In this document: positions 4,008-25,385 of the stretch, one piece after another
How the letters are laid out: every line of letters starts with the position of its first letter
Numbering within the stretch: position 1 is the first letter of the stretch
NCBI RefSeq assembly: GCF_031085375.1
Contig: NZ_JAVCWF010000001.1
Coordinates: forward strand, 62,001 to 126,000
Origin: Lactiplantibacillus brownii
GTDB lineage: Bacteria > Bacillota > Bacilli > Lactobacillales > Lactobacillaceae
Direction: 5' to 3'
Length of the DNA: 64,000 nt
Notes under the pieces: model-generated
The model's input: the letters and a program-made list of their open reading frames with translations, nothing else
Databases searched by the model: none
What the model was told of the DNA's origin: nothing
Position numbers and translations under genes: made by a program

Positions 4008-5736
4008 TTGTTTCATATTGTGATGCAACATATCCATGGTAAGACCCGCTGGTGTTTCTTTTTAGCGCCGTTAATTATGCTAGGCGAAGTTTTTTGCGAT
4101 TTACAACAACCGACGCTAATGGCCAAAATTATTGACAACGGCCTCGCAAAAGGTGATTTTAACTTTGTGATTCGACAGGCCTTGTTAATGGTCATGTTTG
4201 CTTTGCTAGGGGTTGCTTTTGGCGCTAGTGCGGGGACGTTTGGTAGCTTTGCATCATTGAAAATGGGCGAAGCACTTCGCAATCACTTATTGGTAGTCGC
4301 ACTAGAAGATCGGCAGCCAGGTGGGCTTGAGCCGGCAACCTTAATCACGCGGCTCACGAATGATGTGACCCAAATGCAAAATTTAGTGATGATGCTCACG
4401 CGCGGGATGGTTCGTTCGCCGATGTTGCTACTGGGTGGGATTGTGATGTCGATACTGGTTTGTCCAGATTTGGCACCAATCTTACTGATTATTATGCCTT
4501 TGCTAATCATTTTTTTATTGATTGTTGTTCGGCGCAGTATTCCGTTATATACCAAAATGCAACAAGCAGTCGACACTGTTAACCGCATTATGCGGGAAAA
4601 CCTACAAGGTGCTAAAACAATCAAAGCCTATGTTTTAGAGCCCCATCAGTTACACCAATTCAAACGTGAGAATGCCAATTTACAACAAACTAGTCAGGAC
4701 GCGGTTATGGCAACCGTGATCCTATCACCAGTGATTCAACTGATGTTAAATTTAGGCGTGGTTGTGGCATTAGGGTATGGTGGTAGTTTAGCCATTAGCC
4801 AGACGATTAGTGATGGCCAAATCATGGCGTTCGTGAATTATATGATCCAGATTACTTCGGCAATGATTCAAACGGTTAATATTTACAGCCTTTTCACGAG
4901 CCATTACGAGTGCTGCCCGGGTTCAAGCCGTTTTAGCTGAAGAAGTCGCGGCACCGACAACTACGATGACCGCGACAGCTGCGCCTAACGATAATACGAT
5001 TAAGTTTGATAAAGTGACCTTTGGCTATCATCAAAGTGAACCCATTCTTGATCAGGTGAGCTTTGAAGTTCCCGATGGGCAATGGCTGGGAATTATTGGG
5101 GCGACTGGTGCTGGTAAAAGTTCATTGATTAATTTATTAACACGGCGCTTTGATCAATATACTGGCAAGATCACGCTAGGCGGCGTCGATATTAAAACGA
5201 TGTCATTGAAGGCTGTACATACCAAGATTGCGGTCGCACTGCAAGATTCTTTACTTTTTTCAGGAACTGTCCGTAGTAATTTGGCCTATGGTGCGCCTAA
5301 AGCGCCGACAACAGTTTTGGCACAGGCTGCCAAGACTGCGGTGGCCGCCGACTTTATTGACCAGTTACCCGCAACTTATGATGCACCGGTCGAACAGGCT
5401 GGTAAAAACTTTTCAGGTGGTCAACGGCAACGGCTAAATATTTCCCGGGCAATAGTGCCAGATTCCGATATTTTGATCATGGACGATGCAACGAGTGCCG
5501 TTGATCAAACAACGAATGCTGAGATTAAAGCGCACCTCATGCAGGCACGGTCAAAACGAACGACGATCATTATTTCACAGCGCGTGACAAACGTGATGGC
5601 TTGTGATCAGATCATGGTTTTGACGGCTGGTAAGGTCAGTGCAGTTGGGACACATGCTGAGTTGTTGAAACGATCCGAATTTTACCGACAATTAGTTAAA
5701 ACTCAGTTAGGCGGTGGTCGATATGGACATGCATAG
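4008..5736 (+). pseudogene. ABC exporter half-transporter, first subunit, frameshifted
   Basis: This encodes a membrane domain plus ATPase domain of the LmrCD/BmrCD-like heterodimeric multidrug exporters. The original start is TTG 4008 behind AGGAG (3995-3999). The reading frame breaks at a TTTT run (4891-4894): dropping one T joins ..NIYSL to SRAITSAARVQAVL, the normal end of the membrane domain, and continues to the ATPase domain. That domain has Walker A GATGAGKSS, signature FSGGQRQR, and Walker B DILIMDDATSAVD (degenerate catalytic position: Asp instead of Glu, common in one half of heterodimers). It overlaps the second subunit by 14 bp. An IS4 copy sits directly upstream. A homopolymer sequencing error is a real alternative to decay. 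Confidence 0.75.
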
Positions 5737-7519
5737 ACGAGGTCCGCGTCAGTTACATCGAGAAAAAGTTCAACTAGGCGATTGGCGTCAAACGATTGCG
5801 CGTGTTTGGGCCTATTTGGCTAGTCATAAGATCAGCTTATTGATTGTTTTCTTATTAACCGTGGTAACGACCGTTGTGACGATTGTTGGAAACCGAATTA
5901 ACGGTATCGTGATTGATCGTTATGTCAGTAAGCATAAATTGCAGGCGCTTTTAATGGTTTGTGCGGCCATGGTAGTCATGTATTTGATTGCGAGCATTTT
6001 GATGTATTTTCAAAATTCAATCATCATTAAAGTTGCTCAAGCAACCAGTGCCCGCATTCGGCACGACGTGTTTGCTAATCTGCAACGCTTACCAATGCGT
6101 TATTTTGATACACATGATAACGGTGATGTGATGAGCCGGTTGACTAACGATGTAGATAATATTAATACGGCTTTGATGCAGACTTTTGTGCAACTATTTA
6201 CAGGGATTATTAGTGTGATTGGGATGGGTTTAGCCATGTTGATACTGTCGCCATTATTGACCGGGATCACACTGTTGAGCACGTTGGCAACTTATGGTTT
6301 TTCCAAGGGCGTGGCAAAATTAACGCAGAAAGCCTTTATGACCCAGCAAACCGCCCTTGGAAGCTTGAATACCCAGATTGAAGAATCTGTTTCAGGGAAG
6401 CAATTAGTGCAATTGTTTGACCACACAACGACGACGATGGCTGCCTTTAAACAAACTAATCGTCTCTATACGAAAGCGGCATTTCGTGCGCAGGCGTTAT
6501 CTTCAATTATTGGCCCATTTAACAATATGACGAATAATTTAGCCTACGTGTTGATCACTGCAGCTGGCGCAACTTCAATTCTGAGTGGTCGAGGCTCAAT
6601 TACGGTTGGGGTTATTTTTACCTTCTTGATCTATTTACGAAACTTTACGGGGCCAATTAATAATGTGCTGGATTTGATCAATACGCTTCAATTGTCTTTA
6701 GCAAGTGCTGAACGGGTTTTTGACTTGATCGATGAGCCAACTGAGACCGATAACAAGCGCGCCGTAGCGGTTAAAACAACTGCGGGACAAGTGGCATTTG
6801 AACAGGTGTCATTTGCTTATGATCAGCGCCCGATTTTGACTGATATTAATTTAGTGGCTAAGCAGGGTGAAGTCGTGGCTTTGGTTGGGCCAACTGGCGC
6901 TGGTAAAACAACGATTATGAATCTGTTAACGAATTTGTATCCTTTGCAAAAAGGTCGGGTTTTGTTGGATGGCCGTGATGTCACGACCATTAAACGGCAT
7001 GATTTAAGACGGTTGGTGACCGTGGTTGAACAGGAATCATTCTTGTTCACGATGACCATTCGTGAAAATATTCGTTTAGGCCGACCAACCGCTAGCGATC
7101 AAGACGTCGAATTGGCCGCGAAGCAAGCTAATGCCGAGACCTTTATCAAGCAATTACCAGATGGCTATGAGACGATTTTAAGTGAAAATGCCCACAGTTT
7201 GTCTCAGGGACAGTGCCAATTACTAAGCATTGCGCGCGCTTTTATTACTGGAGCGCCCGTATTGGTCTTGGATGAAGCCACGGCGTCGATTGATAGTAAT
7301 ACAGAAGCGGATGTTCAGACCGCCATGACGGCGTTGATGCGGCATAAAACTAGTTTTGTGATTGCACATCGCTTGTCCACGATTCAAGCGGCAGATCAAA
7401 TTTTGGTCATCAATCATGGTCGCATCATTGAGCGTGGTAACCACAAGAGCTTACTAGCCAAGCAAGGGTTTTATGCGGCCTTATATAATAGTCAATTTGA
7501 TCAGTCGGCAACTAACTGA
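5723..7519 (+). CDS. ABC exporter half-transporter, second subunit
   Basis: This 598-residue protein has an N-terminal six-helix exporter domain (about residues 40-320) and a C-terminal ATPase domain with Walker A GPTGAGKTT, Walker B VLVLDEATASID (with the catalytic Glu) and a switch His (FVIAHRLST). It pairs with the broken first subunit immediately upstream; the ATG at 5723 overlaps that gene's end, indicating translational coupling. The signature motif reads LSQGQCQLLS, with Cys where exporters normally have Arg (GQRQ). In LmrCD-type pairs this subunit carries the consensus site. Without a working partner it may be useless. Drug substrates are unknown. Confidence 0.85.
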   Translation: MDMHRRGPRQLHREKVQLGDWRQTIARVWAYLASHKISLLIVFLLTVVTTVVTIVGNRINGIVIDRYVSKHKLQALLMVCAAMVVMYLIASILMYFQNSIIIKVAQATSARIRHDVFANLQRLPMRYFDTHDNGDVMSRLTNDVDNINTALMQTFVQLFTGIISVIGMGLAMLILSPLLTGITLLSTLATYGFSKGVAKLTQKAFMTQQTALGSLNTQIEESVSGKQLVQLFDHTTTTMAAFKQTNRLYTKAAFRAQALSSIIGPFNNMTNNLAYVLITAAGATSILSGRGSITVGVIFTFLIYLRNFTGPINNVLDLINTLQLSLASAERVFDLIDEPTETDNKRAVAVKTTAGQVAFEQVSFAYDQRPILTDINLVAKQGEVVALVGPTGAGKTTIMNLLTNLYPLQKGRVLLDGRDVTTIKRHDLRRLVTVVEQESFLFTMTIRENIRLGRPTASDQDVELAAKQANAETFIKQLPDGYETILSENAHSLSQGQCQLLSIARAFITGAPVLVLDEATASIDSNTEADVQTAMTALMRHKTSFVIAHRLSTIQAADQILVINHGRIIERGNHKSLLAKQGFYAALYNSQFDQSATN

Positions 7520-7831: not shown

Positions 7832-10534
7832 ATGAGTTTAATTGAACGTGTCACCCGAGTTATGACGCAACGACGGTTGGAACAGTACAAATATACGTAC
7901 TTGAAGTATTATAAGAAACATCGAAAGTATCAAAATACGGTTCTGGTTGAGTCAACTCATGGCGATGGCTTTTATGGCCACATGTTCTATGTCGTTAAGG
8001 AAATACGGGCTAGTTATGCGGAGATGAAGGTCTATGTGGCAGTCAATCCCGAAAAGCTAACTGAAGTAAAAGCGATCCTTCAACGCGAGAATATTGAGGG
8101 TGTTCAATTAGTGCCATATTTGAGTAACCAATATGGTGAACTGTTGGCATGTGCTGAATATCTTTTTAATGATACGTCATTCTATGATTTTTTCATTAAA
8201 CAAGATTTTCAAAAATATTTTAATATTTGGCATGGGACACCACTGAAATGCTTGGGTAAAGACGATGGTGACGTTGCTGGTATGGGAAATGTGCAAAAAA
8301 ATTTCTATGCGGCGGATGCGTTAGTGGTTAGTAATGATTACACGCGCGATAAAATGATTCAATCATTCAATTTGGACCGTGTGATGCGTGGCGATGTGCT
8401 AGTCAGTCCTAGTCCTCGAAATAGTATTTTAGGCGATCAAGCGGCTTGGACGTCGATTCGTAAACAGTATCAACTTGAAAATAAAGAAGCGCTCGTTTAC
8501 ATGCCTACTTGGCGTGGCGACGTGGTGAATGTCAATAGCGACGTTTCTAGTGTGGTTAAATTGTTGACTGCGTTAGATACGGCTTTAGCTGACGACCAAG
8601 TTCTCTTCGTAAAATTACATCCGTTCCAAGCTAAATTAGCCAAGTTGGATTTTAGTCAATATCAACATATTGTGGCCTTTCCAACGGATGTTGAAAGCTA
8701 CATGTTTTTAGCTGGTACGGATGCGCTGATCACGGATTATTCTTCTATTATGTATGACTATATGAATACCCGTAAACCAGTGGCACTTTACGTCTACGAT
8801 AAGAAAAATTATTATGCCTCACGTGGTTGTTATGAAGACATTGATGATTATCCGTTTACACAAGCCCACAATGTACAGGCATTGTGTGACTGGGTTAGTT
8901 CACACCATAAGGCAATTGACTACTCAGATGATTTTGCTAACCGTTATGTTGGCGCTGATAGTGAAACCGGGACTAAGGAATTAGTGGCCTATTTATTTAC
9001 GCACTATGGGAATGGTGAGGCGGTGACCACGTCAAACATTTCAGCACTTTGTCCTTACAATGGCAAAGAAACTGTGGCCATCTATTCAGGGCCATTATGG
9101 AATAATGGGATTACGACGGCATTACTCAATACTTTAAATAATGTGGATGTTGACGCGCGCAACTATGTGGTATTTTTCCAGAAGAGTAGCGTTAATGTTA
9201 AATTCACGCACGTTCTATTTAACTTACCTAAGGGTGTAACCTTCTATCCGGTTCCCGGTGGGGTGCTTGGGGATACCTTTGAACGCTTTGCGGTGCGCCG
9301 ATATATTCGTAGTGAACACTTTAAACTGGCGCCGTTCAGTACGGCGACTGAAAAGGTTTATCGTCGTGAATATCGTCGTATCTTGGGTGGCCTCGACCCT
9401 GACTATTTGATTCATTACACGGGATTTGAGCGTGGTTACTCTGAAATGATTGCCAGTCTTCGCTCTGAACGTGTTAAAACCGCGATTTTTGTGCATACTG
9501 ACATGTTTGAAGAACGCAAATTACGTGGTAAGGGACTTAATTGGAAGATGACGGCTCGTGCTTACAAGTATGCGGATAAAGTTGTCTTAGTCAGTGAAGA
9601 GCTACGGCAAGACTTTGTGGCTGGTTTTCCAGACACGGCTAATAAGATCACGATCGTAGATAATTTTCTTGGTTCGGAAACGGTCCAGCAAGCGGCTGAA
9701 GAAAGTGGTTTAACTGCCATCATCGAAGGACCAGTGACTTATAGCAATAATTCGCGTGCCGAAGAAGCCGTTATTAACAGTCTGGGTGGCAATCACGTCA
9801 ACTTTGCTATGCCAGCGGCTAATGATTTTGTTGGCAAAGTCTTACTAACGCGGTACGCACAACGGCATCAATTCAAACACGTTGAACAGGCCTTGCCCGC
9901 AATACAAGCGGCTATTAATACTAAGATGGCTAATTATGTTCAGCTAAAAGCACCGATTGATTTTTCGACTAATGATTTATATGCGATGTATGGGGTCTCT
10001 AAGCTACGTTTGCTGGATGATTTATTGAATAAGCAAATCAAAGTGTTTATTAATGTGGGTCGAATGGCTGAACAAAAAGGCCACGATCGCTTAATTAATA
10101 GCTTTGTTGAGGTGCATAAACAATATCCGAATACACGGTTGGTCATTGTGGCGCCACATGGTGATTTACGCCGAGAGACGATTCAATGGATTCGTGATTC
10201 TGGCTGCTCAGGGAGCATTTACTTGCTTGGCAGTATGGATAATCCTTATTCATTGATGAAGATGGCGGATGCTTTTGTCTTTACGTCACGCTTTGAGGGG
10301 CTAGGTTTGGTTGTCTTCGAGGCACTAGCCTTGGACATGGATGTGATCACGGTTAATTTACCAGAAACGGTGGCAATGCTTGAACCTGGAAATGCCATGA
10401 TTGCTGAAAATGATGACGCCGCGATTACTAAAACTTGGCTAGCTTATATGCAACATGGTTTTGAACGCAAACCGTTTAACTTCGCGATTCATAACGATTC
10501 GTCAGTCGCACAATTTGAACAGATATTTAAGTAA
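7832..10534 (+). CDS. Bifunctional teichoic acid enzyme: glycerophosphotransferase fused to glycosyltransferase (copy 1)
   Basis: This is a 900-residue fusion. Residues about 35-385 match the CDP-glycerol glycerophosphotransferase family (TagB/TagF): NIWHGTPLKCLGKD, LVVSNDYTRD, VYMPTWRG, and TDYSSIMYDYMN are its hallmark motifs. These enzymes add glycerol-phosphate units to the wall teichoic acid chain at the inner membrane face. Residues about 415-900 look like a GT4-type GT-B glycosyltransferase (FINVGRMAEQKGHDRLI, FTSRFEGLGLVVFEALA), as in TagE, which glucosylates poly(glycerol-phosphate). The start at 7832 follows a GGGGTGG sequence. A close paralogue lies at 11150 and tagD lies between. 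It is inferred that one protein both polymerises or primes and decorates the chain; neither activity is proven by sequence. Confidence 0.8.
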   Translation: MSLIERVTRVMTQRRLEQYKYTYLKYYKKHRKYQNTVLVESTHGDGFYGHMFYVVKEIRASYAEMKVYVAVNPEKLTEVKAILQRENIEGVQLVPYLSNQYGELLACAEYLFNDTSFYDFFIKQDFQKYFNIWHGTPLKCLGKDDGDVAGMGNVQKNFYAADALVVSNDYTRDKMIQSFNLDRVMRGDVLVSPSPRNSILGDQAAWTSIRKQYQLENKEALVYMPTWRGDVVNVNSDVSSVVKLLTALDTALADDQVLFVKLHPFQAKLAKLDFSQYQHIVAFPTDVESYMFLAGTDALITDYSSIMYDYMNTRKPVALYVYDKKNYYASRGCYEDIDDYPFTQAHNVQALCDWVSSHHKAIDYSDDFANRYVGADSETGTKELVAYLFTHYGNGEAVTTSNISALCPYNGKETVAIYSGPLWNNGITTALLNTLNNVDVDARNYVVFFQKSSVNVKFTHVLFNLPKGVTFYPVPGGVLGDTFERFAVRRYIRSEHFKLAPFSTATEKVYRREYRRILGGLDPDYLIHYTGFERGYSEMIASLRSERVKTAIFVHTDMFEERKLRGKGLNWKMTARAYKYADKVVLVSEELRQDFVAGFPDTANKITIVDNFLGSETVQQAAEESGLTAIIEGPVTYSNNSRAEEAVINSLGGNHVNFAMPAANDFVGKVLLTRYAQRHQFKHVEQALPAIQAAINTKMANYVQLKAPIDFSTNDLYAMYGVSKLRLLDDLLNKQIKVFINVGRMAEQKGHDRLINSFVEVHKQYPNTRLVIVAPHGDLRRETIQWIRDSGCSGSIYLLGSMDNPYSLMKMADAFVFTSRFEGLGLVVFEALALDMDVITVNLPETVAMLEPGNAMIAENDDAAITKTWLAYMQHGFERKPFNFAIHNDSSVAQFEQIFK

Positions 10535-10555
10535 GCAGGGGCGAATCGGGCATTT

Positions 10556-10585
10556 TTGGAAAACCCCGTAATGACGTGCTATAAT
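10556..10585 (+). promoter_or_regulatory. Promoter of tagD
   Basis: TTGGAA (10556-10561) and TATAAT (10580-10585) are separated by 18 bp, about 57 bp before the tagD start. The perfect -10 and the position behind the preceding stop codon support an independent promoter. Confidence 0.55.
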
Positions 10586-10641
10586 GGGCTCTATTAATGA
10601 ATACCGCGGATCCAGTACTGGTATACGAGGAGGATATACAC

Positions 10642-11037
10642 ATGAAACGTGTAATCACGTATGGGACATTTGATCTTTTACACTATGGACACATTGAATT
10701 ATTAAGACGGGCCAAGGCTCTCGGGGATTACTTAGTTGTGGCCTTGTCTACCGATGAATTTAATTGGGATAGCAAACAAAAGAAAGCATACTTTCCGTAC
10801 GAAAAGCGTAAGGCGCTTTTAGAAGCGATTCGTTACGTTGATCTGGTCATTCCTGAGGAAGCTTGGGATCAAAAAGTTCGTGATATTAAATTGTACCAAA
10901 TCGATACATTTGTGATGGGTGATGACTGGAAAGGTCAGTTTGACTTTGTCGGTGAGCAAACCGATGCCGAGGTTGTTTATCTCCCACGGACGCCAGAAAT
11001 TTCAACGACGAAGATTAAAAAAGACCTGAAGATGTAG
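10642..11037 (+). CDS. tagD: Glycerol-3-phosphate cytidylyltransferase TagD
   Basis: This 131-residue enzyme makes CDP-glycerol from CTP and glycerol 3-phosphate, the donor used by the two flanking glycerophosphotransferase fusions. The nucleotidyltransferase motifs are clear: GTFDLLHYGHIELL (HxGH) near the N-terminus and RTPEISTTKIK near the C-terminus (the RTxGISTT motif with Glu in place of Gly). Length matches B. subtilis TagD (about 129). The frame is open further upstream to 10597, but the ATG at 10642 is preceded by GAGGAGGA at ideal spacing and begins exactly at the family start (MKRVITYGTFD). A strong terminator follows. Confidence 0.95.
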   Translation: MKRVITYGTFDLLHYGHIELLRRAKALGDYLVVALSTDEFNWDSKQKKAYFPYEKRKALLEAIRYVDLVIPEEAWDQKVRDIKLYQIDTFVMGDDWKGQFDFVGEQTDAEVVYLPRTPEISTTKIKKDLKM

Positions 11038-11062
11038 TTAACGCTAATCCCAGGTATGTTAG

Positions 11063-11104
11063 TGTTGGCTACAATCCAAGCGGTTGTAGCCAACATTTAT
11101 TTTA
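11063..11104 (+). terminator. Intrinsic terminator after tagD
   Basis: TGTTGGCTACAA (11063-11074) pairs perfectly with TTGTAGCCAACA (11084-11095), followed by TTTATTTTA. It separates tagD from the second fusion gene, which must therefore have its own promoter or depend on read-through. Confidence 0.8.
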
Positions 11105-11149
11105 TGAAAAGTTAGCTAAATTTAATTCAGGGGTTAAGGGGTTAGCTCG

Positions 11150-13840
11150 ATGGCAAATTATGTAAAAAAGGCGGTCGCTCTGCTTAAGAAAGCGAAGCGA
11201 ACTTACTATATTACGTGGTACCGCAATGCGTTTTTGCAGCATCACAAGTTAGAAAAAACGGTACTGATCGAGTCAACACATGGCAATGATTTTTATGGCC
11301 ATATGTACTATTTGACGCAATCGTTACGGGCGTTGTACCCAGAAATGAACTTGAATGTTGCGGTAGCCAAAACTAAGCTCACTGCAGTACGACAACAATT
11401 GGACCGCTTAGGTATGCAGGATGTAAAGGTTGTCCAGTTTTTGGGCCACGAGTATTGTACCTTACTAGCTTCAGCTGAATATTTGTTAAATGATACGTCG
11501 TTTTATCCATTTTTTATCAAACAAGACTTTCAACAGTACATCAACATTTGGCATGGGACGCCATTAAAGTGTCTCGGCAAAGATGATGGTGATGTGCCAA
11601 ATATGGGTAATATCCAAAAAAATTTTTATAATGCAGATAAATTAATCGTCAGTAATGACTATACGCGGCAGGCGATGATTGACTCGTTTAACCTCGACGG
11701 TGTCATGAAGGGGGACGTGGTGGTGGCACCAAGTCCTCGTAATAGTGTGCTGTGCAACGATGAACTACGACAAACCGTTCGTGAGCGTTATCAGCTTGAG
11801 AATCAGGAAGTCTTGGTGTACATGCCAACTTGGCGTGGTGGCGTGGCTAAAGTTTTAAATGAGTCGCTTAAAATTACCCCTTATCTCAAACAAATGGACG
11901 CTGCGCTGAACGATGATCAAGTGTTATTCGTCAAGTTGCATCCATTTCAAGCCCAACTTGAAAACATTGATTTTTCGCCATATCGGCATCTCAAGCCGTT
12001 CCCAATGGACATTGAAAGCTATGAATTTTTAGCCGGGACGGATGGCTTGATCACCGATTATTCGTCAATTATGTATGATTATTTAAATACGGGCAAACCC
12101 GTTGTCCTATTTTCGTATGATAAAGATCATTATTATGCGGAACGCGGTTGTTATGAAGATATCGATAATTATCCATTGCCACAGTTTAGAACGATTGAGC
12201 GGCTCTGTGAGTGGCTGAAAAATGGCTCTCGTGAAAAGACCTATGATGAGGCCTTTGCGAAACGGTTTATTAGCTTAGACAATCGTGATGGTGATCGTCA
12301 GCTGGCACGCTATATCATTGAAGGGACGACTGACTTTGGATCGGTTAAAATTGATCCGATGTCGCCTGATAATGGGCGTGAAACGGTCATTATGCATGTT
12401 GGGACGCTGTGGGGCAATGGTATTACGTCAGCGTTATTCAATACATTAACGACGGTTGATGTGACAAAACGTAACTATTTAGTCTTTATCAATAAAAATC
12501 GGTTGACTGCCGATGACCAATGGCGCTTGTTTAATTTGCCAGCGGGTGTACAGTTCTTTCCGGTGCCATTAGGGCCTGCTAATAATTTAGCGGAGCGACT
12601 TGTGGTAATGCTGTTTTTGCGATTTGAAAAATTAAATCACCGTTGGTTCCAGCGGGTTGCTGATCGCTGTTTTCGGCGCGAATATCGGCGGCTATTTGGT
12701 GATCTTAAACCCAGTGCTTTTATTCACTACACTGGCTACGAGCGTAATTATGCTGAAATGATTTCCGCGTTGGCGCCAACTGAGGTCAAAACGTCAATTT
12801 ACATGCATAATGATATGATTGCTGAAAAGCGAAGCAAAGGTAAAGGCATGAATTGGGCCATTCTCACGCGTGCTTATCGCATGGTCGATCACTTGGTGTT
12901 TGTGGATGCAGCACAACGGGATGACTTTTTGAAAGTTTATCCGGCGGTGTCCAAGCAAGCTGTCGTGGTAGACAATTTTATTGGTAGTCAAACGATTCAA
13001 GCTAAATCAAAGGCACCACTGGTTACAACGCTACTTGAAGCCCCTGTTATTGTGAGTCATGCGCCAGCGATTCTACGACGACAGATTCAGGTAAAAACAA
13101 CCTTGAGACTTGAATTGGACCGGCCAGCGAGCCAAGTCGCAGAAACGGCGATGGCCTTTCTCGGCGTTGAAACGGCTCAATTTGATCATTTAGCGGCGCA
13201 TATCGCCGAGTCTACGGCTGGTTTACGACAGGCATTACCAGCCAAGGTACAATTACCAAATGAGTTTGAAATGTCCGCTCGGCGAACCGTTAGTTTACTT
13301 GGCTTAACACGGAGTCAACTATTAGATGATCTCTACAATCCACAATTGAAGGTTTTCGTGAATATTGGCCGGATGGCTGCGGTAAAGAGTCATGAGCGCT
13401 TGATTCATAGTTTTATTGCCGTTCACCGCCAAAATCCTAAAACGCGATTGGTGATTATTGCTTCTTATGGTGATATGCAAGCTGCGATTGAGCAATGGAT
13501 CGCTGATTCTGGTTGCGCCGATGCGATTTATTTCTTAGGTCGGATGAGTAATCCATACGTGGTTTTGCGTTTAGCGGATGCATTTGTCTTCACGTCACTG
13601 TATGAATCGCTGGGACTAGTCGCATTTGAAGCGTTAGCGGTTGGGACAGATGTGGTGACGGTTTCGATTCCCGCCACTAATGCGCGGTTACAACCAGGAA
13701 ATGCCTTGGTTGTCGCTAATGATCAAGCGGAGATTACCAAGAGCTGGTTAGCCTATCTGGCTCACGGTTACGACCGGACCACAATGGATTTTGCTGCGGA
13801 TGATCAACGCTCAATTCATGAATTTGAACAATTATTTTAG
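11150..13840 (+). CDS. Bifunctional teichoic acid enzyme: glycerophosphotransferase fused to glycosyltransferase (copy 2)
   Basis: This 896-residue paralogue of the gene at 7832 has the same domain order. The N-terminal glycerophosphotransferase shows ESTHGNDFYGHMYY, INIWHGTPLKCLGKDDGD, MPTWRGG and TDYSSIMYDYLN; the C-terminal GT-B domain shows VFVNIGRMAAVKSHERLI and FTSLYESLGLVAFEALA. The N-terminal half is clearly more alike between the two copies than the region around residues 600-720, which suggests different acceptors or linkages. Start ATG 11150 follows AAGGGG. Ten bases separate its stop from the next glycosyltransferase gene, so those two are likely co-transcribed. As with copy 1, the precise division of labour (primase, polymerase, decorating enzyme) is inference. 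Confidence 0.8.
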   Translation: MANYVKKAVALLKKAKRTYYITWYRNAFLQHHKLEKTVLIESTHGNDFYGHMYYLTQSLRALYPEMNLNVAVAKTKLTAVRQQLDRLGMQDVKVVQFLGHEYCTLLASAEYLLNDTSFYPFFIKQDFQQYINIWHGTPLKCLGKDDGDVPNMGNIQKNFYNADKLIVSNDYTRQAMIDSFNLDGVMKGDVVVAPSPRNSVLCNDELRQTVRERYQLENQEVLVYMPTWRGGVAKVLNESLKITPYLKQMDAALNDDQVLFVKLHPFQAQLENIDFSPYRHLKPFPMDIESYEFLAGTDGLITDYSSIMYDYLNTGKPVVLFSYDKDHYYAERGCYEDIDNYPLPQFRTIERLCEWLKNGSREKTYDEAFAKRFISLDNRDGDRQLARYIIEGTTDFGSVKIDPMSPDNGRETVIMHVGTLWGNGITSALFNTLTTVDVTKRNYLVFINKNRLTADDQWRLFNLPAGVQFFPVPLGPANNLAERLVVMLFLRFEKLNHRWFQRVADRCFRREYRRLFGDLKPSAFIHYTGYERNYAEMISALAPTEVKTSIYMHNDMIAEKRSKGKGMNWAILTRAYRMVDHLVFVDAAQRDDFLKVYPAVSKQAVVVDNFIGSQTIQAKSKAPLVTTLLEAPVIVSHAPAILRRQIQVKTTLRLELDRPASQVAETAMAFLGVETAQFDHLAAHIAESTAGLRQALPAKVQLPNEFEMSARRTVSLLGLTRSQLLDDLYNPQLKVFVNIGRMAAVKSHERLIHSFIAVHRQNPKTRLVIIASYGDMQAAIEQWIADSGCADAIYFLGRMSNPYVVLRLADAFVFTSLYESLGLVAFEALAVGTDVVTVSIPATNARLQPGNALVVANDQAEITKSWLAYLAHGYDRTTMDFAADDQRSIHEFEQLF

Positions 13841-17067: not shown

Positions 17068-17151
17068 CGGTCAGTTAGGGACGAGGTGCAGTAGACCACT
17101 AGGCAAATTATTCGTATACTTAGAGCTAGCAGAAAAATTTGGAAGGGGGTG

Positions 17152-18657
17152 GTGAACATCGCGGTAAAAATTGGGTCAGCGTTAAAACAATTATTATTAG
17201 CCAGTAATTTAGGCTTAAATAAAAATCACCCGTTGGCGGGTTGGCAAATCTTGACGATTCTGTATCATGATGGTGCTGGCAGTACGCCGATGACGTTGGA
17301 AACGTTGGCGACTAAGTATAATGTCGATTATTTGGATGTTGAAACTCAAGAGGCCCCCATCTCGAATCCGGTTTTAAAAGGGGTATTGGACGTGCTAGAA
17401 GCACAAGCTCATTTAATTGAAGTATCTTCTCGTAAAGTGCGGATGCCGATGAAAAATGGTGTTTATCACAATCAACAATCGTATGTTTATAAGATTACGA
17501 GCTCCGGTATTGAATATTTAACCATGATGCAGCGCGTGGTGGATGCCGAAAATACCGTCACAGCCAATATTAATCGGATTGATGAATATTGTCAGTTAGT
17601 TGACGCATTATCTGCACCAAACTTAACGACTGATAGCACGCAACTTTACAATGATTTTGCCAAGATGTTGACGGCTTACACGGATGTCATGAAAGGGATG
17701 CACAAAGTTGATGATGATTTGAGTGAACTAGCTCATGACTTGGCTTTTAATCATGGTAGTGCGGCCGCAGAGCATCTGCAAACGATGTTGACGGGCAAAG
17801 CAATCCCTGCCTTTAAACAGTTGCTCGGTCAAGCCGGATTAGTCCAAGCGTTGGCCGATAGTGAGGAATTTAGCGCTCAAGTTGCTCGCAGTCAACAGGG
17901 GCGCGACGATTTAGATGCGGCGCACGCGGCCGGAGATGCTGGCAAAATGGTGTTACGATCGCAACGAACTCAGGCCTATGTGCAACGACAATTGCACCAG
18001 TTGGCCTTAAGTTTTAATGCGAGTTCTAGTGCTATTGATAGTAGTTTGGACTCAGTTTTTATGTTATTTCAAACGATTTTAGAGGTCGTTCGATTATTGA
18101 GCCAAGAATATGACCATGTTCAAAGCCAGACGGTGGATGTCAAAGTTTTAAAGGCTAGCCTAGATGATTTGTTGACGAACTACGAGTCATTACGTATTCC
18201 AGCAGCGATCCCACGGCATTTAGCACAAGACCGAATCGTCACGGATGCCAGTGATTTATTACAGGCTACGACGATGGGACCGGTGACTTATGCTTTGAGC
18301 ACCCGCGTCGCAACGGTTGCGACAGCCGCGGATAACCCAACCATTGCGGCCGATGATAAAACGACTGCGCAAACGCTAAAAGCTGGTTTGGTTGAGTTTC
18401 AAAGGTTAGTAATGCGCCAAGCTAACACCGCTATTATTGATCATGATCTGACTTTTACAACGGTTTTGGCACGTGACGAAGTGGCACGGTTATATAGTGC
18501 GACAGGCTATGATCATTATGACAGCTTTGCACCGTTTGGACGTGCGGTTAAAGAGGTTCAAACGTTGCCAAAATCAGCAGCAGTACGGTTACACTGTGCT
18601 GGTGAGCAATATTCAGTTTGGCTACCAAGCGGTTTTAAAGTTGAGTTCGTGGATTAG
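17152..18657 (+). CDS. jetA: Wadjet system protein JetA (kleisin-like)
   Basis: This 501-residue protein has an N-terminal winged-helix-like region (LAGWQILTILYHDG; YVYKITSSGIEYLTMM near residue 120) and a long helical middle, the look of MukF/MksF-type kleisins. It is named JetA from its place ahead of an SMC-like ATPase (JetC) and a toprim-type nuclease (JetD). In Wadjet, JetA bridges the JetC ATPases while the complex extrudes and cleaves closed-circular plasmid DNA. The start is GTG 17152 or 17149 after GGAAGGGGG; spacing favours 17152. It stands 125 bp before jetB, a gap that contains an SOS box, so jetA may be transcribed separately from jetBCD. Confidence 0.75.
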   Translation: MNIAVKIGSALKQLLLASNLGLNKNHPLAGWQILTILYHDGAGSTPMTLETLATKYNVDYLDVETQEAPISNPVLKGVLDVLEAQAHLIEVSSRKVRMPMKNGVYHNQQSYVYKITSSGIEYLTMMQRVVDAENTVTANINRIDEYCQLVDALSAPNLTTDSTQLYNDFAKMLTAYTDVMKGMHKVDDDLSELAHDLAFNHGSAAAEHLQTMLTGKAIPAFKQLLGQAGLVQALADSEEFSAQVARSQQGRDDLDAAHAAGDAGKMVLRSQRTQAYVQRQLHQLALSFNASSSAIDSSLDSVFMLFQTILEVVRLLSQEYDHVQSQTVDVKVLKASLDDLLTNYESLRIPAAIPRHLAQDRIVTDASDLLQATTMGPVTYALSTRVATVATAADNPTIAADDKTTAQTLKAGLVEFQRLVMRQANTAIIDHDLTFTTVLARDEVARLYSATGYDHYDSFAPFGRAVKEVQTLPKSAAVRLHCAGEQYSVWLPSGFKVEFVD

Positions 18658-18679
18658 TTTGTATTATTTGTGTAAATTA

Positions 18680-18693
18680 GGAACATACGTTCG
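18680..18693. promoter_or_regulatory. LexA/DinR-type SOS box before jetB
   Basis: GGAACATACGTTCG matches 13 of 14 positions of the Gram-positive SOS box (CGAACATACGTTCG form of CGAAC-N4-GTTYG), including the full GAAC-N4-GTTC core. It lies in the 125-bp gap between jetA and jetB, about 90 bp before the jetB start and next to a TATATT (18705-18710) that may be the -10. This predicts that jetBCD is repressed by LexA and induced by DNA damage. Confidence 0.65.
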
Positions 18694-18782
18694 ATAAAGT
18701 GTGCTATATTCTAGTTAAGCCAAGCCATGGCGCACAGAAGTCGGTACTAGCTTAAGTCAGTCACTAATTAGCAGGGGGATCA

Positions 18783-19792
18783 ATGAGTAAATTACGACAT
18801 TCTGATCAAGTTATTTTTAATGATTTGATTGATCATCAGGTTTTCACGAGTACTGTCACGACACAAACTTCGCAGAAAACAGCGACCGCCATCGAAACCT
18901 TGAAGCGTCCTGGAACTCTGCAGCGCATCAATCATTTTTTGACGGCGCTAATTGGTCAGCAACCGGAAAATTATCAAGAAAATCTGGTGCTGTTCGTCGG
19001 GACACAGGCTTTGCCGGCTGAAACGGTGCACATTTTATTAGCCACGTTAAAGGCCATTATTAACCTGCCGGAATTACAAAATATGCGCGCCGATCGGGTC
19101 GTATTGGCAGCAACTGTCGTTCGACAAGTTCATAGTGAAGTGACCGCTTGTGATGAGCGGATGATTTTACGTCAAATCAACGCGTTATTTGTCGATCAAT
19201 TGGGATTGCTGACTTTAGATCAACCAGCGACACCCCCACGTGATCAGGCCGGTGAAGTGCAGGATTACTGGGATGTTAGCCCAGATTTTACCTTTGTAAC
19301 GCAGTGTATCGTCGATCAGTTAATGACGAATGCCACCAAGCCAGAACGAACCCCAATTCAGCAGCTTAATTTGCAATTATTGACGCAACGGTTAGTCGTA
19401 AGACTTCATCAGAGTTATGGCAAACTTTGGTTCAGAACCGAACAGAAATTGCTGAACAATGGGCACAATTGGGTCGTTTTGATTTAGAACTTGGCGACGA
19501 CTACGCGCTATTATTGGATACGCAACGGACGCCGAGTGAAGCGAAACCATTCATCATTGCCATTGTGGTTGCCCATGCTCTGGGAAATGCCGGTATCAGG
19601 GAAGCGGAACTGACAGCATTAATCAAGAAAATGATGGCAGGGATGCCGGCCGTGTCAAATGTGACAACGACACAAGTCAAACAAGCATTAGCTGACTATG
19701 ATTTGGTGACCAAAGCAGACGGTTTTATTAGCCCGACCCCGTTGGTTGCGCGTTTTCAAGTTAAGCCTGAGGAGGAAATTTTAAATGACTAG
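18783..19792 (+). pseudogene. jetB: Wadjet system protein JetB (MukE-like), frameshifted
   Basis: The gene starts with ATG 18783 behind GCAGGGGG. Its frame runs 235 codons to a stop at 19487, while the continuation is open in another frame from before 19427 to 19792. Joining them near 19409-19412 with one added base gives ..VVRLHQ followed by ELWQTLVQNRTEIAEQW, a smooth helical sequence of about 336 residues. JetB/MksE proteins are winged-helix partners of the kleisin. The last 8 bp overlap jetC, whose ribosome binding site (GAGGAGGA) lies inside this gene. Either the Wadjet complex lacks an intact JetB in this strain, or the missing base is a sequencing error. The family assignment rests mainly on position. 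Confidence 0.7.
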
Positions 19793-22700
19793 ACAGCAGC
19801 AATTAGTACCAGTAAGCTTTCATCTGCGTAATTTTAATAAGTATACGCAGCTAGACTTGAATGCCTCAGAACGTGGTAATTTAACCTTAATTGGTGAAAA
19901 CGCTGCTGGGAAAACGACCCTGGCAAACTGTTTCTTTCCAATGCTGATTGATGGGTCGATTGCCACACCATCATTTAATCCTGCTAAAGGCACCGATCGT
20001 ATTGATAATCACGGCAAGCCACGCAATAGTGCGCGTGATACGCGAACTTTTGATAGCATGTTTCTTGGTTGGGGGGCCGGAGCCATGAAGGTTCGGACAG
20101 GCTATACATATATGCAGTTGGCCTCGGAACAACGACAAGTTATTTTGGGGATTGGGGCTCACCGCACAGTTGGTGAAAAACGAAAGCCGACTTGGTGGTT
20201 TGTCGTAATTAGTCAGCAAAGTGAGCCATTGACTTTGACAACGACTGATTCAGATGGTAATGGTCTGGCCAAAGACGCCTTCATAGCGGCTAATACAGAC
20301 TTAGGGTCAGATTTAGTGGTGTTTGATCAAGTTGCAGCTTATCAGGAGTATGTGACGAGTAAAGTCTATGGTTTTGATAGTGTCGAAATTTTAGAAAAAT
20401 TGGCGAATGTGTATCGGTTACTGGCTTCACCAATTCTGACCGCGGGTAATGCCCGTTTTACACCAATTCGTGAAGCTTTAAAGAATGCGCAAGCGGGTAT
20501 TGATTCACAAGTGATTGAAGAAGTTGCGGCAAGTCAGCGAGATGTTAATCGGATGAATGGTGTTTTGCAGCGGATCGTCCGAGTTCGAGACCGATTGGCG
20601 CGGATGAAAAAAGAAGTCTTTTGGCGAAACCTAAATCGACTAGATGACAATCAGTTACGAGACTATAACCGGGCTCATCAAAATCTTGAACGTAAGCAGA
20701 CAGCCAAAGCTCATTTTGAAAAGCAAATTAGCACCTTTGTGGAACAGCTTGAATTGCTAGCTGCTAATTTAAAAGCCGCCGAAACCCAACTGGCTGATTT
20801 ACGGCGTGAACAAGCCAAGCAGGATGAGATCAAGGGTCGTCGTAAACAATACGATGATCAAATTAAGACGTTAAAACAACAATTGAAGAGTTTTAAAGCC
20901 CAGCAGCAAAATTTAGCAGAACAACAAGCGAAATTAGTCGCAGCTGAGCAGGAGCAGGCTGGTCTTGAGGCGGATCAGGCACATCTGATCAATCATGATT
21001 TGCGGCCACTGCAAGCTGAGTTAAGTGCTAAAACCGCAGCGCTACCTGCATTAAAAGATGCGTTGGCAGAAGTGGATTTAGCAAAAGTCGTCCAACAATT
21101 AGCGCACTATGTTCAAGAGAATCAGGTGAATCTGAGTAAGTATCAAGCCAATCAAAATGAACAAGCACATTTAAGCCAAGATGTTGAGATTGTTCATGGG
21201 ATTCGGGTTGACTTGGATAGTCGTATTGAGCAACGGGTACAAGGTCCAATGACCAGTCGTTTCAAGACGGGACTTTTAGCTGATAATTTAGATGCCCATA
21301 ATACTGGGGCCGAGAAAATGAACCAGAATTTAGCACCATTATTAATGGAAGCGAAGCGACTCTTAAACGACAATCCTGACTTGCCGGTCCTACTGGATCA
21401 ACCAGAACTATTGGACTGGCTTAAGCAACGGCACAAAGCGTTATCTGTTGTTATGTCTAAGCAAAACAGGCTAGTAAATGCGCTTGATAAATTAAATGAT
21501 CGTGAATTAACGTTGGATGATCAGATCAAGAAACTGCAACAAACGATGCCGAAAAATTATGATGTTGAAACGGAAGTCCAACGAATTGCGACTTTAGTGA
21601 CTCAGCGGGACGCGCTTAAAGTTGATGAAAAAATCAAGCAGCGGGTTCAGCAGGCCGAACAAAACTATCGTCAGCTCACTGACAAGCGTGATGATTTAAA
21701 TAGTCAACGTGCAGCGCTACAAGGCAAAGTGACCAGCGCTGAAGCAGATATTGTTGGCTACCAGGCGGAACTTAAAGCATTGGCTGAGAAGCTAACTTTA
21801 GCGTTAAGAACATTGGCGCCATATTTTCCGGATGAGTTGGATATCGCTAATGTGGCTGAATTAATTAGCTATACACAGCAACATCGTGTAGAAGTTCGAA
21901 ATGCACCTTATGGGGATCTTACCAGCAAAATTAGCAAATTGATTCATCGCAATGATGAAAATGGCATTGACCGTTATGCGATCGATGATTTATTTGAAGC
22001 ACGCAATCACATCAGTGAAGCGAGTGCGATTCATCAACAACGATCTGTTGAAGAGAATGGCATCAAATTTGTCGCTTTTGATATTAATCATGCCCAAGCG
22101 TTAATGGCGGCAGATCAAACTGCGGTGACCAAGGCACTTGAACAATTGAAAGTGGGGAACGATGTGGCCCAAGTTGCTTATCTAGGGGCAGCCACTAATT
22201 TAATTACAACTCAGTATCATTTGATCAATGATTATAATCAAATGCTGTCAGCAGGGGTTAATCGAGAACAAAGTATCAAACTAAAAATTACTTTAACCCC
22301 TTCTGAAGTTGATCCTAAAGTAATTGAAGAGGCTCGCAATCCACGTTTACATGAACGGCCATTACTACTAGCAGAAGTGCAAAAGCGGCTTATGCGATTA
22401 GCTAATGATACAACATTGACTGATGATAACGACTTCATGACTGCTGCTAAAGAATTACTAGATACTCGTCAATGGTCAGCGTTTCAAGTATTGATTAAGC
22501 GTCGACAAAATGGCGAAGATGATTATGAAATCGTGGATGATAAGTTTGTTCAGTCTGGTGGCTCTGGTGCTGAAAAGGCCCAGGCCATGGTATTGCCGCT
22601 ATTGTTGGTTCCTAAAATGTTATTGCAACGAGCGACGGCTAGTGATGCACCTTATTGGGTCATGTTTGATGAATTTGCCGATAAGCTAGATCCAGAAACG

Positions 22701-22916
22701 GCCAAGTTATTTGCTAAGACAATTGCCCGCTTTGGGTTTAATTTTATTGCGACGATGCCAGGTGGGGCACAGAATAAGATCTTAGCAGATGGTGTCGATA
22801 ATATTGCTTATGATGTGATTGCCCCTAAGAATCAAGCAGATGGTCAATTTCATAGAAATATTGTGCGCCAAGCATTGATTTGGCAATTGGAGCGAGCAAA
22901 TGAATCCTTATCGTAA
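19785..22916 (+). CDS. jetC: Wadjet system SMC-like ATPase JetC
   Basis: This 1043-residue ATPase has SMC/MukB architecture: Walker A GENAAGKT at residues 37-44, long coiled coils on both sides of a central hinge-like region (heptad- and Gln/Lys/Ala-rich, about residues 270-420 and 540-690), an ABC signature SGGSGAEKAQA near residue 925, and Walker B YWVMFDEFADKLD near residue 960. In Wadjet, JetC dimers form the DNA loop-extruding motor. The ATG at 19785 overlaps the end of jetB by 8 bp and jetD overlaps its end by 17 bp, so the three are translationally coupled. All ATPase motifs are intact. Confidence 0.88.
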   Translation: MTRQQQLVPVSFHLRNFNKYTQLDLNASERGNLTLIGENAAGKTTLANCFFPMLIDGSIATPSFNPAKGTDRIDNHGKPRNSARDTRTFDSMFLGWGAGAMKVRTGYTYMQLASEQRQVILGIGAHRTVGEKRKPTWWFVVISQQSEPLTLTTTDSDGNGLAKDAFIAANTDLGSDLVVFDQVAAYQEYVTSKVYGFDSVEILEKLANVYRLLASPILTAGNARFTPIREALKNAQAGIDSQVIEEVAASQRDVNRMNGVLQRIVRVRDRLARMKKEVFWRNLNRLDDNQLRDYNRAHQNLERKQTAKAHFEKQISTFVEQLELLAANLKAAETQLADLRREQAKQDEIKGRRKQYDDQIKTLKQQLKSFKAQQQNLAEQQAKLVAAEQEQAGLEADQAHLINHDLRPLQAELSAKTAALPALKDALAEVDLAKVVQQLAHYVQENQVNLSKYQANQNEQAHLSQDVEIVHGIRVDLDSRIEQRVQGPMTSRFKTGLLADNLDAHNTGAEKMNQNLAPLLMEAKRLLNDNPDLPVLLDQPELLDWLKQRHKALSVVMSKQNRLVNALDKLNDRELTLDDQIKKLQQTMPKNYDVETEVQRIATLVTQRDALKVDEKIKQRVQQAEQNYRQLTDKRDDLNSQRAALQGKVTSAEADIVGYQAELKALAEKLTLALRTLAPYFPDELDIANVAELISYTQQHRVEVRNAPYGDLTSKISKLIHRNDENGIDRYAIDDLFEARNHISEASAIHQQRSVEENGIKFVAFDINHAQALMAADQTAVTKALEQLKVGNDVAQVAYLGAATNLITTQYHLINDYNQMLSAGVNREQSIKLKITLTPSEVDPKVIEEARNPRLHERPLLLAEVQKRLMRLANDTTLTDDNDFMTAAKELLDTRQWSAFQVLIKRRQNGEDDYEIVDDKFVQSGGSGAEKAQAMVLPLLLVPKMLLQRATASDAPYWVMFDEFADKLDPETAKLFAKTIARFGFNFIATMPGGAQNKILADGVDNIAYDVIAPKNQADGQFHRNIVRQALIWQLERANESLS

Positions 22917-23709
22917 ACAATACGAGGCACAAACGGGTAAGGTTGTTTCTAAACATGCCCAGCGGCTGGAACCACTATTCACAAAAATTTCGACTGGTGC
23001 CACATTACCCCCACGTGGGCAACAAGCCGTTGATCTGGGCTTTACAGCGCATAGCTTAAATGATCCACGTGAAGATCCAGAAGTTTATCAATACTATCAA
23101 TGGGTATTAGCTAATTTTTTTGAAGATCAAGTAGTCCATGAGTTATCTGCAAAATTGATAGGGGCAACATTTACCGCGGCTAATATTTTTAAGACTGATT
23201 TACCACAACCGATAACGCTTAACCCGTGGCAAATTGAGAAAATGATGGCCTTTCCGTTGGCAACAAAACGTGCGATCATTGTTGAAAATAACGGTGTCTT
23301 TATTTGGTTGTTACATCGTCACCCAGATTGGCCAATGATCAATCAAGCAGGCAATGATTTTAATCAGGCTTATTTAGAAGTGGTCCAGTCACTCGAACAA
23401 CGTCAAGTGGCTTTAACTTATATTGGCGATATTGATAGTCGTGGGATTCAAATGGCGGACTACTTATTTGGTCAGCTTTCAGCGACTACGATTGAAACTT
23501 TTACGGCAATTCAGTCACCAACGACTGTTTTTCAGTGGTTAACGACATTTGGCAAACCCAATGTCAAACGTAGTCGAGATTTGCGAGTGATACAGCCAAC
23601 ATTTCGAAAGGAATTAGATTCCATTAATGTTTTAAAGTGTTTCGTGGAACAGGAGCAATTGATATCGACCTATGAGGCCTTGATTCCAGCTTGGCTCCAG
23701 TCATGTTAA
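22900..23709 (+). CDS. jetD: Wadjet system nuclease subunit JetD (toprim-like)
   Basis: This 269-residue protein shows the toprim pattern used for plasmid cleavage in Wadjet: a catalytic Glu in AIIVENNGVF (about residue 128) and the DxD in YIGDIDSRGIQMADYL (about residue 185). It is shorter than many JetD proteins (about 400), mainly at the N-terminus, so the DNA-binding arm may be reduced. It overlaps jetC by 17 bp. A perfect parS site begins three bases after its stop codon. Its arrangement after a 1043-residue JetC fits one of the less studied Wadjet types; I do not assign the type firmly. Confidence 0.8.
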   Translation: MNPYRKQYEAQTGKVVSKHAQRLEPLFTKISTGATLPPRGQQAVDLGFTAHSLNDPREDPEVYQYYQWVLANFFEDQVVHELSAKLIGATFTAANIFKTDLPQPITLNPWQIEKMMAFPLATKRAIIVENNGVFIWLLHRHPDWPMINQAGNDFNQAYLEVVQSLEQRQVALTYIGDIDSRGIQMADYLFGQLSATTIETFTAIQSPTTVFQWLTTFGKPNVKRSRDLRVIQPTFRKELDSINVLKCFVEQEQLISTYEALIPAWLQSC

Positions 23710-24000: not shown

Positions 24001-24897
24001 TTGGATTTCAAACAATTGCAGTATTATTTGATGATTGCAGATTTAAAGAACATGACACAGGCAGCTGCAAAATTACATGTTGCTCAGCCTTATTTAAGCC
24101 GCCAATTAAAACAGTTAGAGCAAGAATTAGGGGTAACGTTACTCAACCGAACGACTCGTGAAATGCAACTAACTTCGGCTGGACGGGTATTGCAGCAACG
24201 GGCCCGAGAGTTATTAGCCTTGCGTCAACAATCCATCCATGAAATTACCTCAGTTCGTGATGGTCAGACGGGAACGGTGAAAATTGGGGTGGTTGCCTCC
24301 ATTAATAATGGTATTATTCCAGCTTGGTTGGCCCAGTATCATCGCCATTATCCAGGGGTACAATTCTTAATTGAGGAACGTCCAAGTAGTGAAATTGTTA
24401 AAATGTTGCGAGAGCAGCGCATTGAGCTGGGAATTATGCGAACGGCTAAACCGTTGTCCGGTTTTCAACAATTAGAATTGCCTACAGTGCCAATTGTGAT
24501 GGTTGGGCGGCAATTGATTGCGTCAGAAAAACTGGCACATACGGGCATTCAGATTCTAAAGAACCAACCCCTGTTAGTGCATCGTTATCATGTCGACTTA
24601 ATTACTAAACTCTGTCATCAAGCTGGCTTCGAACCGATTTTTCTGGCGCAAGTCGACAATTCATTAACCTTATTACGGCTTGCAAATCAAGGCATCGGTG
24701 TTGCACTGATTCCACAGGATTGGTTAGATCTGGTACGAATGAGTCATTTACAGGCGCAAACCCTTGCCATTCCAGAATTGACCAGACCCACAACGGTTAT
24801 TTGGCAAACGTCACGATTATCATTAGTTGGGCGGCGCTTTGTCGAGTTAATCGACTCGCAGCGAATAAAAATCAATTCGAACATACGTTTGCCATGA
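24001..24897 (+). CDS. LysR-family transcriptional regulator
   Basis: This 298-residue regulator has an N-terminal winged helix-turn-helix (residues about 1-60: MTQAAAKLHVAQPYLSRQLKQLE) and a C-terminal periplasmic-binding-like effector domain (from about residue 90, TVKIGVVASINN). The start is TTG 24001, preceded by GGGAAGGGGG; the frame is open upstream to 23953 but without a matching ribosome binding site. LysR proteins usually regulate a neighbouring gene, and the flavin-oxidase-like gene at 24954 is the obvious candidate. Its last codons contain an SOS box and the -35 of that gene. The effector ligand is unknown. Confidence 0.88.
   Translation: MDFKQLQYYLMIADLKNMTQAAAKLHVAQPYLSRQLKQLEQELGVTLLNRTTREMQLTSAGRVLQQRARELLALRQQSIHEITSVRDGQTGTVKIGVVASINNGIIPAWLAQYHRHYPGVQFLIEERPSSEIVKMLREQRIELGIMRTAKPLSGFQQLELPTVPIVMVGRQLIASEKLAHTGIQILKNQPLLVHRYHVDLITKLCHQAGFEPIFLAQVDNSLTLLRLANQGIGVALIPQDWLDLVRMSHLQAQTLAIPELTRPTTVIWQTSRLSLVGRRFVELIDSQRIKINSNIRLP
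24878..24891. promoter_or_regulatory. LexA/DinR-type SOS box over the promoter of the gene at 24954
   Basis: CGAACATACGTTTG fits the Gram-positive SOS consensus (CGAAC-N4-GTTYG) at every fixed position. Its last three bases overlap the -35 hexamer (TTGCCA, 24889-24894) of the promoter for the downstream gene, an ideal place for a repressor. It lies within the final codons of the LysR gene. Confidence 0.7.
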
Positions 24898-24953: not shown

Positions 24954-25385
24954 ATGGATCTGACAACTTTACAACATGTCGTGACGATGACCAATAAAAT
25001 TGCGTTAAGTACGGCTCTGGACAATCAGGCGGACGTCAAAATTGTTAATTTCGTCTGGTATCCAGCACAGCCAGCGACGCTATATTTTTCATCGGTCAAG
25101 GATAGTGCGGCTTTGACTACTTATGCGCAAAATCCAGATGTGGCGTTTATTTCGGTGCCAAATGATACCGCTGTAGGAAATCCATATATCCGGGCACAAC
25201 ACGTGAAATTAGAACGTTCTGAAAAGACGATGGCAGAGCTATTGCCACGGTATTTAGAAACGGTGCCTAATTATCAAAAAGTTTGGGATCTTATTGGTCC
25301 AAAACTGGTGGTCTTTGAACTTAAACTCAAAGACTTGTACGTTGATCCGGGCCTGGGTCAAAATAAAGGAACCATGCATTTTTAA
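24954..25385 (+). CDS. Pyridoxamine 5'-phosphate oxidase family protein
   Basis: This 143-residue protein matches the split-barrel flavin-binding family: ALSTALDNQADVKIVNFVW and PATLYFSSVKDS in the first half are the usual beta strands, and GNPYIRAQ fits the phosphate-binding region. Members reduce or bind flavin-linked substrates such as F420/FMN-dependent oxidoreductions; the true pyridoxamine oxidase is longer, so that reaction is unlikely. It sits after a LysR gene in the same direction and its promoter carries an SOS box, which suggests DNA-damage induction. It ends at a strong terminator shared with the convergent peptide-binding gene. Confidence 0.7.
   Translation: MDLTTLQHVVTMTNKIALSTALDNQADVKIVNFVWYPAQPATLYFSSVKDSAALTTYAQNPDVAFISVPNDTAVGNPYIRAQHVKLERSEKTMAELLPRYLETVPNYQKVWDLIGPKLVVFELKLKDLYVDPGLGQNKGTMHF

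Follow-up and report, generated by a model that had tools for sequence, protein, structure and literature searches.

Repression by LexA, relieved through RecA-driven cleavage, is the established logic of the SOS response, and RecN is placed under its control. MukBEF has no known nuclease. The anti-plasmid system Wadjet has been described in a type II form, JetABCD, in Neobacillus vireti (9qe0 and 9qe1). The literature searched contained no report of LexA or SOS control of Wadjet and nothing on how Wadjet gets switched on, an absence that reaches as far as those searches. The available main text of PMC9122601 mentioned Wadjet once and LexA never, while in the accessible portions of the review PMC10586767 and of PMC12287153 the term 'SOS' occurred 0 times, as did 'regulat' in the latter. 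The initial annotation, made from the DNA letters, knew of no established link between Wadjet and LexA, and none was encountered in these searches.

Considered here is a 14-mer between the first two genes of a Wadjet operon that is type II-like but divergent. We hold it probable, at roughly 0.78, that this 14-mer is an operator of the chromosomal LexA on an internal jetBCD promoter and that plasmid destruction by the system would be SOS-induced.

Genes of the jet operon

The operon occupied positions 17149-23709 of the window (the whole 64-kb stretch of DNA analysed); its four products measure 502, about 340 (split), 1043 and 269 aa. Its features are listed below.

17092..17120, plus strand: proposed jetA promoter, TAGACC-17-TATACT, found by scan (9/12 positions), without box in the window
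17149..18657, plus strand: jetA-like gene, 502 aa, kleisin-like
18680..18693, no strand assigned: GGAACATACGTTCG, putative LexA (SOS) operator between jetA and jetB, from the sequence, with a like element in the gaps of loci L059, L085 and L090
18702..18710, plus strand: extended -10 TGC-TATATT (TGCTATATT) of a proposed internal jetB promoter, from sequence and alignment
18783..19487, plus strand: jetB-like piece 1, 234 aa, shortened by a frameshift, 78 % identity to residues 1-214 of P0103 (336 aa)
19427..19792, plus strand: jetB-like piece 2, an ORF of 121 aa in another frame, 72 % identity to the C-terminal 117 residues of P0103
19785..22916, plus strand: jetC-like gene for an SMC ATPase, 1043 aa (PADLOC JetC2, 9qe0_A, Walker motifs)
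22900..23709, plus strand: jetD-like gene for a predicted TOPRIM nuclease, 269 aa

The operon proteins are a Wadjet-like set, in agreement with the initial annotation, which had named the genes as Wadjet. JetC matched the PADLOC model JetC2 at 4.4e-24 and, by profile, the solved JetC 9qe0_A at 2.8e-17; positions of the Walker A, signature and Walker B motifs were nearly invariant, as predicted for the SMC-type ATPase of a Wadjet system. JetD, the predicted nuclease of the set, displayed a JetD_C domain with its TOPRIM residues kept and, in its model, a JetD/MksG-like fold, the best structural match being the Corynebacterium glutamicum nuclease 8b7f, presumably MksG. The JetA model (pLDDT 76) resembled MukF and aligned best with Wadjet-II JetA, at an rmsd above 20 to the latter; the kleisin identity suggested by this predicted fold is the weakest among those of JetA, JetC and JetD. 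JetA and both JetB pieces were without match in Pfam, PADLOC or NCBIfam. Profile searches of solved structures returned none for JetD and, for JetB (expected to be KITE/MukE-like, and with its gene broken here), a single unconvincing one at E 1.8; one JetB relative carries the source name DUF4194. Identities to relatives amounted to 77-79 % for JetB (P0103-P0105) and 81-87 % for JetC (P0001-P0003).

The order jetA-jetB-jetC-jetD was general, all four genes being detected by tblastn in 41 of 43 loci. The two exceptions were L081, which ends at a contig edge, and L087, which lost jetA. Curated type II cut-offs were not reached (70 bits against 462.85 for TIGR02680 and 32 against 196 for TIGR02679), which is why the operon is treated as a divergent relative and not filed as type II. 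In L087 (Levilactobacillus hammesii), the place of jetA and of the start of jetB was occupied by a gene resembling transposases (8134-9999; HTH_38, weak rve). In L088 (Lapidilactobacillus luobeiensis), jetC matches at 10001-13133 fell into two pieces in different frames, and this gene may be frameshifted.

The box in the jetA-jetB gap and the SOS operators of the host

Positions 18680-18693, read directly from the window sequence, are GGAACATACGTTCG, and 18681-18692 form an exact GAAC-N4-GTTC core, the sole exact copy within the 64-kb window. The gap extended over 125 nt from the jetA stop (18657) to the jetB start (18783) and was the only sizeable one of the operon, the B/C and C/D genes overlapping. 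A TATATT hexamer stood at 18705-18710 with TGC directly before it; 11 nt separated it from the 14-mer (12 nt counted from the core), as in L059, L085 and L090, and 90 nt lay between the core and the jetB start. This proposed promoter was missed by the consensus promoter scan because it displays no good -35. The box is thereby placed at the predicted promoter of the gene proposed as controlled. On all three points the initial annotation held up: it had noted a full LexA-type core, its location in the only sizeable gap and an adjacent possible -10, to which the poor -35 can be added.

Loose matches to the core were uninformative, since the number of one-mismatch cores in the whole window was at chance level (19 against 21.0 expected). 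The minus-strand form of the box, CGAACGTATGTTC, matched with zero mismatches CGAACRNRYGTTY, an SOS-box consensus. Among the matches listed for the 3.35-Mb genome, 13 were zero-mismatch copies of this consensus, the gap box being one of them; with one mismatch allowed, the consensus did not exceed its reversed control in number (87+77 against 87+95). Neither was the exact core over-represented genome-wide: it occurred 24 times, the reversed control 71 times. According to ORF calls, 13 of these 24 cores were intergenic and 11 coding, and the N4 started with a purine in all 13 intergenic cores and in three of the 11 coding ones (hand count). The gap box is considered above chance because of its promoter position, its N4 and the comparative data given below. 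Rfam returned no match at gathering score between 15000 and 26000, plasmid records gave no DNA match to 18500-20200, and none of the 21 stretches of viral contigs that matched a pattern encoded a JetC relative.

An upstream lexA operator of the GAAC-N4-GTTY kind was present in 39 out of 39 genomes examined (9 + 30, that is, this genome and those of 38 of the 43 loci, L081, L087, L099, L100 and L101 being left out). Thirty-one of these operators read [CG]GAAC-N4-GTTT and the other eight were the same element on the opposite strand (CAAAC-N4-GTTC). The operator of this genome, CGAACATTTGTTTG, is of the GTTT form, one letter off the exact core, and a GTTT-form box was also found upstream of dinB. 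Exact intergenic cores preceded jetB, recA, addB (match cut by the locus end), sbcD, tag and plsY (with parE on the other side), as well as a Pol IV/UmuC-type gene whose best profile match remained below cut-off. Profile matching of the 13 intergenic-core genes left out L027 and L053 and gave no match for the genes behind four cores (L003, L009, L011 and L026); by eye, the cores L026 and L027 adjoined UmuC-like ORFs. The palindromic core of the jetB box is thus of the kind displayed by the LexA operator of the host, and the predicted SOS box at 18680-18693 is supported as a LexA site at the level of sequence.

Two further genes behind a box were noticed. At L003 (1501-1782), a 73-aa gene without Pfam or NCBIfam match displayed a promoter resembling that of jetB, its box and the bases behind it including GTTCTAAAAGTGTGCTATGATT. 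A second SOS box free of mismatches, CGAACATACGTTT, was found at 24878-24890 within the final codons of a LysR gene, where by eye it overlaps the -35 of a TTGCCA/TATAAT-like promoter; the pyridoxamine-oxidase-like gene that follows (24954-25385) is possibly another SOS gene next to the jet operon.

Boxes in related jet loci

A profile scan yielded 43 loci, to which 14 loci differing from those 43 over a 500-nt probe were added; L081 and L087 being excluded, 56 jet loci including the window were assessable. The scan of related lactobacilli that the initial annotation had proposed showed seven of the 55 non-window loci to carry an exact box, either within the jetA-jetB gap or in the promoter of jetA, against a mean of 0.18 and a maximum of 3 in 300 shuffles; three of the seven were at the same place and spacing as in the window. 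With one half-site T allowed, the excess was smaller (nine of 55, L166 and L181 being the two added, against a shuffled mean of 1.0 and a maximum of 5). The exact box was missing in 48 of the 55 (47 when the asymmetric box of L166 is counted). Within the 43 loci, the 13.9 kb of jet regulatory DNA held seven exact cores, compared with three in the 111 kb of remaining intergenic DNA and three in the 796 kb of coding sequence. The boxed relatives are not independent, and the seven reduce to about three placements, window apart; for at least three placements with 0.18 expected, the Poisson chance is near 0.0008.

Gaps of only 11-40 nt, none with an exact box, were displayed by 36 of the 41 loci having both jetA and jetB. 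A gap of 217-228 nt with the box AGAAC[GA]TTTGTTCG was found in three species, all Levilactobacillus: L. andaensis (L059), L. fujinensis (L085) and L. koreensis (L090). Their flanks were similar and a like -10 followed at equal distance. Alignment with the window gave a common TATT-TTT-TGTAAA upstream, then the box and an equally spaced GCTATA, the window having one extra base between TATT-TTT-TGTAAA and the box. Long gaps of 165-172 nt in L088 and L092 were without box, and in the genus of the window, L073 (Lactiplantibacillus plantarum EGD-AQ4, with a JetB identical to that of genome G016) and L164 displayed a gap of 16 nt and no exact box.

The other four exact boxes were upstream of jetA, at two further positions. 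Among the species with a box at jetA is L. parabrevis ATCC 53295. By eye, the box filled the 17-nt spacer of a TTGACA/TATAGT promoter in L060 and L093 and abutted the -35 of the jetA promoter in L063 and L067. A like -35 was abutted in L166 by GAACATCTGTTT, a sequence identical to the core of the most frequent lexA operator in the set of 30 genomes; L063, L067 and L166 kept half-sites and flanks (with one half-site T in L166) while their N4 changed. The jetA promoter of the window resembles that of these three loci. A one-T variant upstream of jetA in L181, GAACAAAAGTTT, is probably due to chance and was not retained.

Some neighbouring genes are recorded here as well. The three exact cores in other intergenic DNA were 69-99 nt upstream of one neighbouring gene, similar by eye in the three loci and located on the opposite strand downstream of jetD (L063 13966-14865, L087 14031-14930, L061 14740-15609). 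Its product of 289-299 aa (no Pfam match for the L063 copy) makes it an SOS-gene candidate. In L090 (L. koreensis), a small gene and a zeta-toxin-like gene were found upstream of the jet operon (5043-5890).

The JetC tree comprised 44 rows, L166 being absent. The window grouped with 11 Levilactobacillus-type rows at a support of 91/93, below the starred level, and all eight exact-boxed loci (window included) were inside this group of 12. Its four members without box were L061, L062, L065 and L087, the latter with jetA gone. None of the 31 assessable rows outside the group (L081 excluded) displayed an exact box. Judged from sequence comparison, the box appears kept in orthologous promoters of this one tree group, and SOS control looks like a trait of one clade and not of Wadjet in general. 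Gap position and upstream position each require at least two changes on the tree. The gap-promoter flanks, being shared, suit one old gap promoter that was lost in some lineages while the box was re-placed upstream of jetA in others; separate gain or transfer of the box is conceivable as well.

Outside the family, type I JetA (PF11855) matched in three of 398 genomes, none above cut-off, and type II JetA (PF09660) elsewhere in the class matched in 65 of 398. Sixty upstream stretches of type II jetA genes were examined (fragments omitted, three shortened by contig ends). Two displayed an exact core (L207 and L232) and a third, L236, the one-T variant. The core of L207 is inside the jetA coding region and was rejected as jetA operator. 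In L232, which belongs to another family, the core (GGAACATACGTTCT, position 311) precedes a type II jetA by about 250 nt.

Alternative readings, proposed control and known systems

The jetB gene was broken in this genome by a frame change at 19390-19436, which left pieces of 234 and 121 aa. The JetB search found 47 proteins; the 234-aa form was the shortest, and the other 46 measured 270-348 aa. The short form is unlikely to be one assembly's error, since two member sequences in the protein database place it on four contigs, the longest of other size (3,044,547 bases, against 3,009,648 here). The Wadjet system may thus be dead or idle in this strain, and the operator may outlive a working system in this genome. 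That the operator is real and idle, selection having gone with the frameshift, we rate as fairly probable and as compatible with the LexA operator proposed above; nothing but jetA remnants with internal stops is left in two genomes of the genus (G012:C1:116655-117135 and G007:C8:41302-41676). Even so, jetA, jetC and jetD are open and of full length, the box is still perfect, and idleness leaves unexplained the boxes of relatives with an open jetB, such as the gap box of L. koreensis JCM 16448. The tie between Wadjet and SOS that the initial annotation had drawn was therefore upheld in part: boxes in orthologues and a lexA operator in every genome examined speak for it, the frameshift and the many loci without exact box against it.

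A real LexA operator could also serve a complex that acts, like RecN and SbcCD, in chromosome repair or segregation during SOS. Presence of sbcD and addB behind the same core in this genome fits this, as does the resemblance of JetA, JetC and JetD to MukF, SMC/Rad50 and TOPRIM proteins. JetD nevertheless keeps the TOPRIM residues together with the JetD/MksG fold. The operon, moreover, has a patchy distribution, JetA matches (fragments among them) being present in 55 of the 397 family genomes, and it has decayed in two members of the genus; we infer that this pattern fits defence better than a core repair gene, and the repair function is judged unlikely. Far less credit is given to a chance palindrome in an AT-rich gap. 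The scarcity of the core relative to the reversed control, the coding location of 11 of the 24 sites and the chance-level number of one-mismatch cores would allow it; recurrence in orthologues far above the shuffled mean, with equal spacing and similar flanks in three species, makes it most improbable. Equally little weight falls on another palindrome-binding regulator with the same half-sites: some species encode additional weaker LexA-model matches, but the LexA model has a single match in this genome, and the boxes agree with the operators upstream of lexA in the same genomes or in related ones.

With a LexA operator preferred, the operon is probably, from its sequence, a defence operon switched on upon DNA damage or entry of foreign DNA. 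Bound to the box, LexA would overlie the upstream half of an internal promoter from which jetB, jetC and jetD are transcribed. In undisturbed cells it would block this promoter, jetA being read from its own box-less promoter, from which some readthrough may reach jetBCD. As jetA of the window has its own promoter-like sequence, SOS would govern how much JetB, JetC and JetD is available. RecA filaments on single-stranded DNA would provoke LexA self-cleavage and open the jetBCD promoter; JetB, JetC and JetD would then join JetA, and the complex would extrude loops, locate small circular DNA and cut it. Conjugating plasmids enter single-stranded and can trigger SOS, as reported for E. coli and V. 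cholerae; plasmid entry would for this reason be the inducer of plasmid destruction, a step for which we join SOS logic to conjugation-triggered SOS by inference. A broader reading, to which we give somewhat less than even odds, would place Wadjet in the SOS regulon of Levilactobacillus and of a Lactiplantibacillus, with destruction induced by single-stranded plasmid DNA via RecA and LexA as its purpose. The operator would there have been kept, lost and re-placed at three sites (in the jetA-jetB gap, abutting the jetA -35, or in a promoter well ahead of jetA).

Predicted LexA operators recurring at varied sites of one operon offer a testable link between DNA damage and anti-plasmid immunity. 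Such control would explain how a DNA-cutting complex is held low until needed, and it predicts that conjugative plasmids entering such hosts benefit from anti-SOS factors.

As regards known systems, MukBEF and MksBEFG are approached here by a JetA resembling MukF and by 8b7f as top match of the JetD model; in the portions of the literature available, no LexA control of these systems was seen. RecN and SbcCD are SMC-type proteins tied to DNA damage, with sbcD behind the same core in this genome, but they are repair proteins, whereas the JetD of this locus belongs with Topo VI A-like TOPRIM proteins and its JetC is related to JetC. The Gram-positive LexA regulon has in common with the locus GAAC-N4-GTTY at promoters, here those of recA, lexA, addB, dinB and tag, and differs by the plasmid-defence operon as a candidate member. 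Wadjet type II is resembled in the order A-B-C-D, in JetC, in the JetA model and in JetD; in contrast to it, JetC measures 1043 aa instead of 1371 aa, JetD is 269 aa long against profiles of 382-430 positions, and a putative SOS operator is located within the operon.
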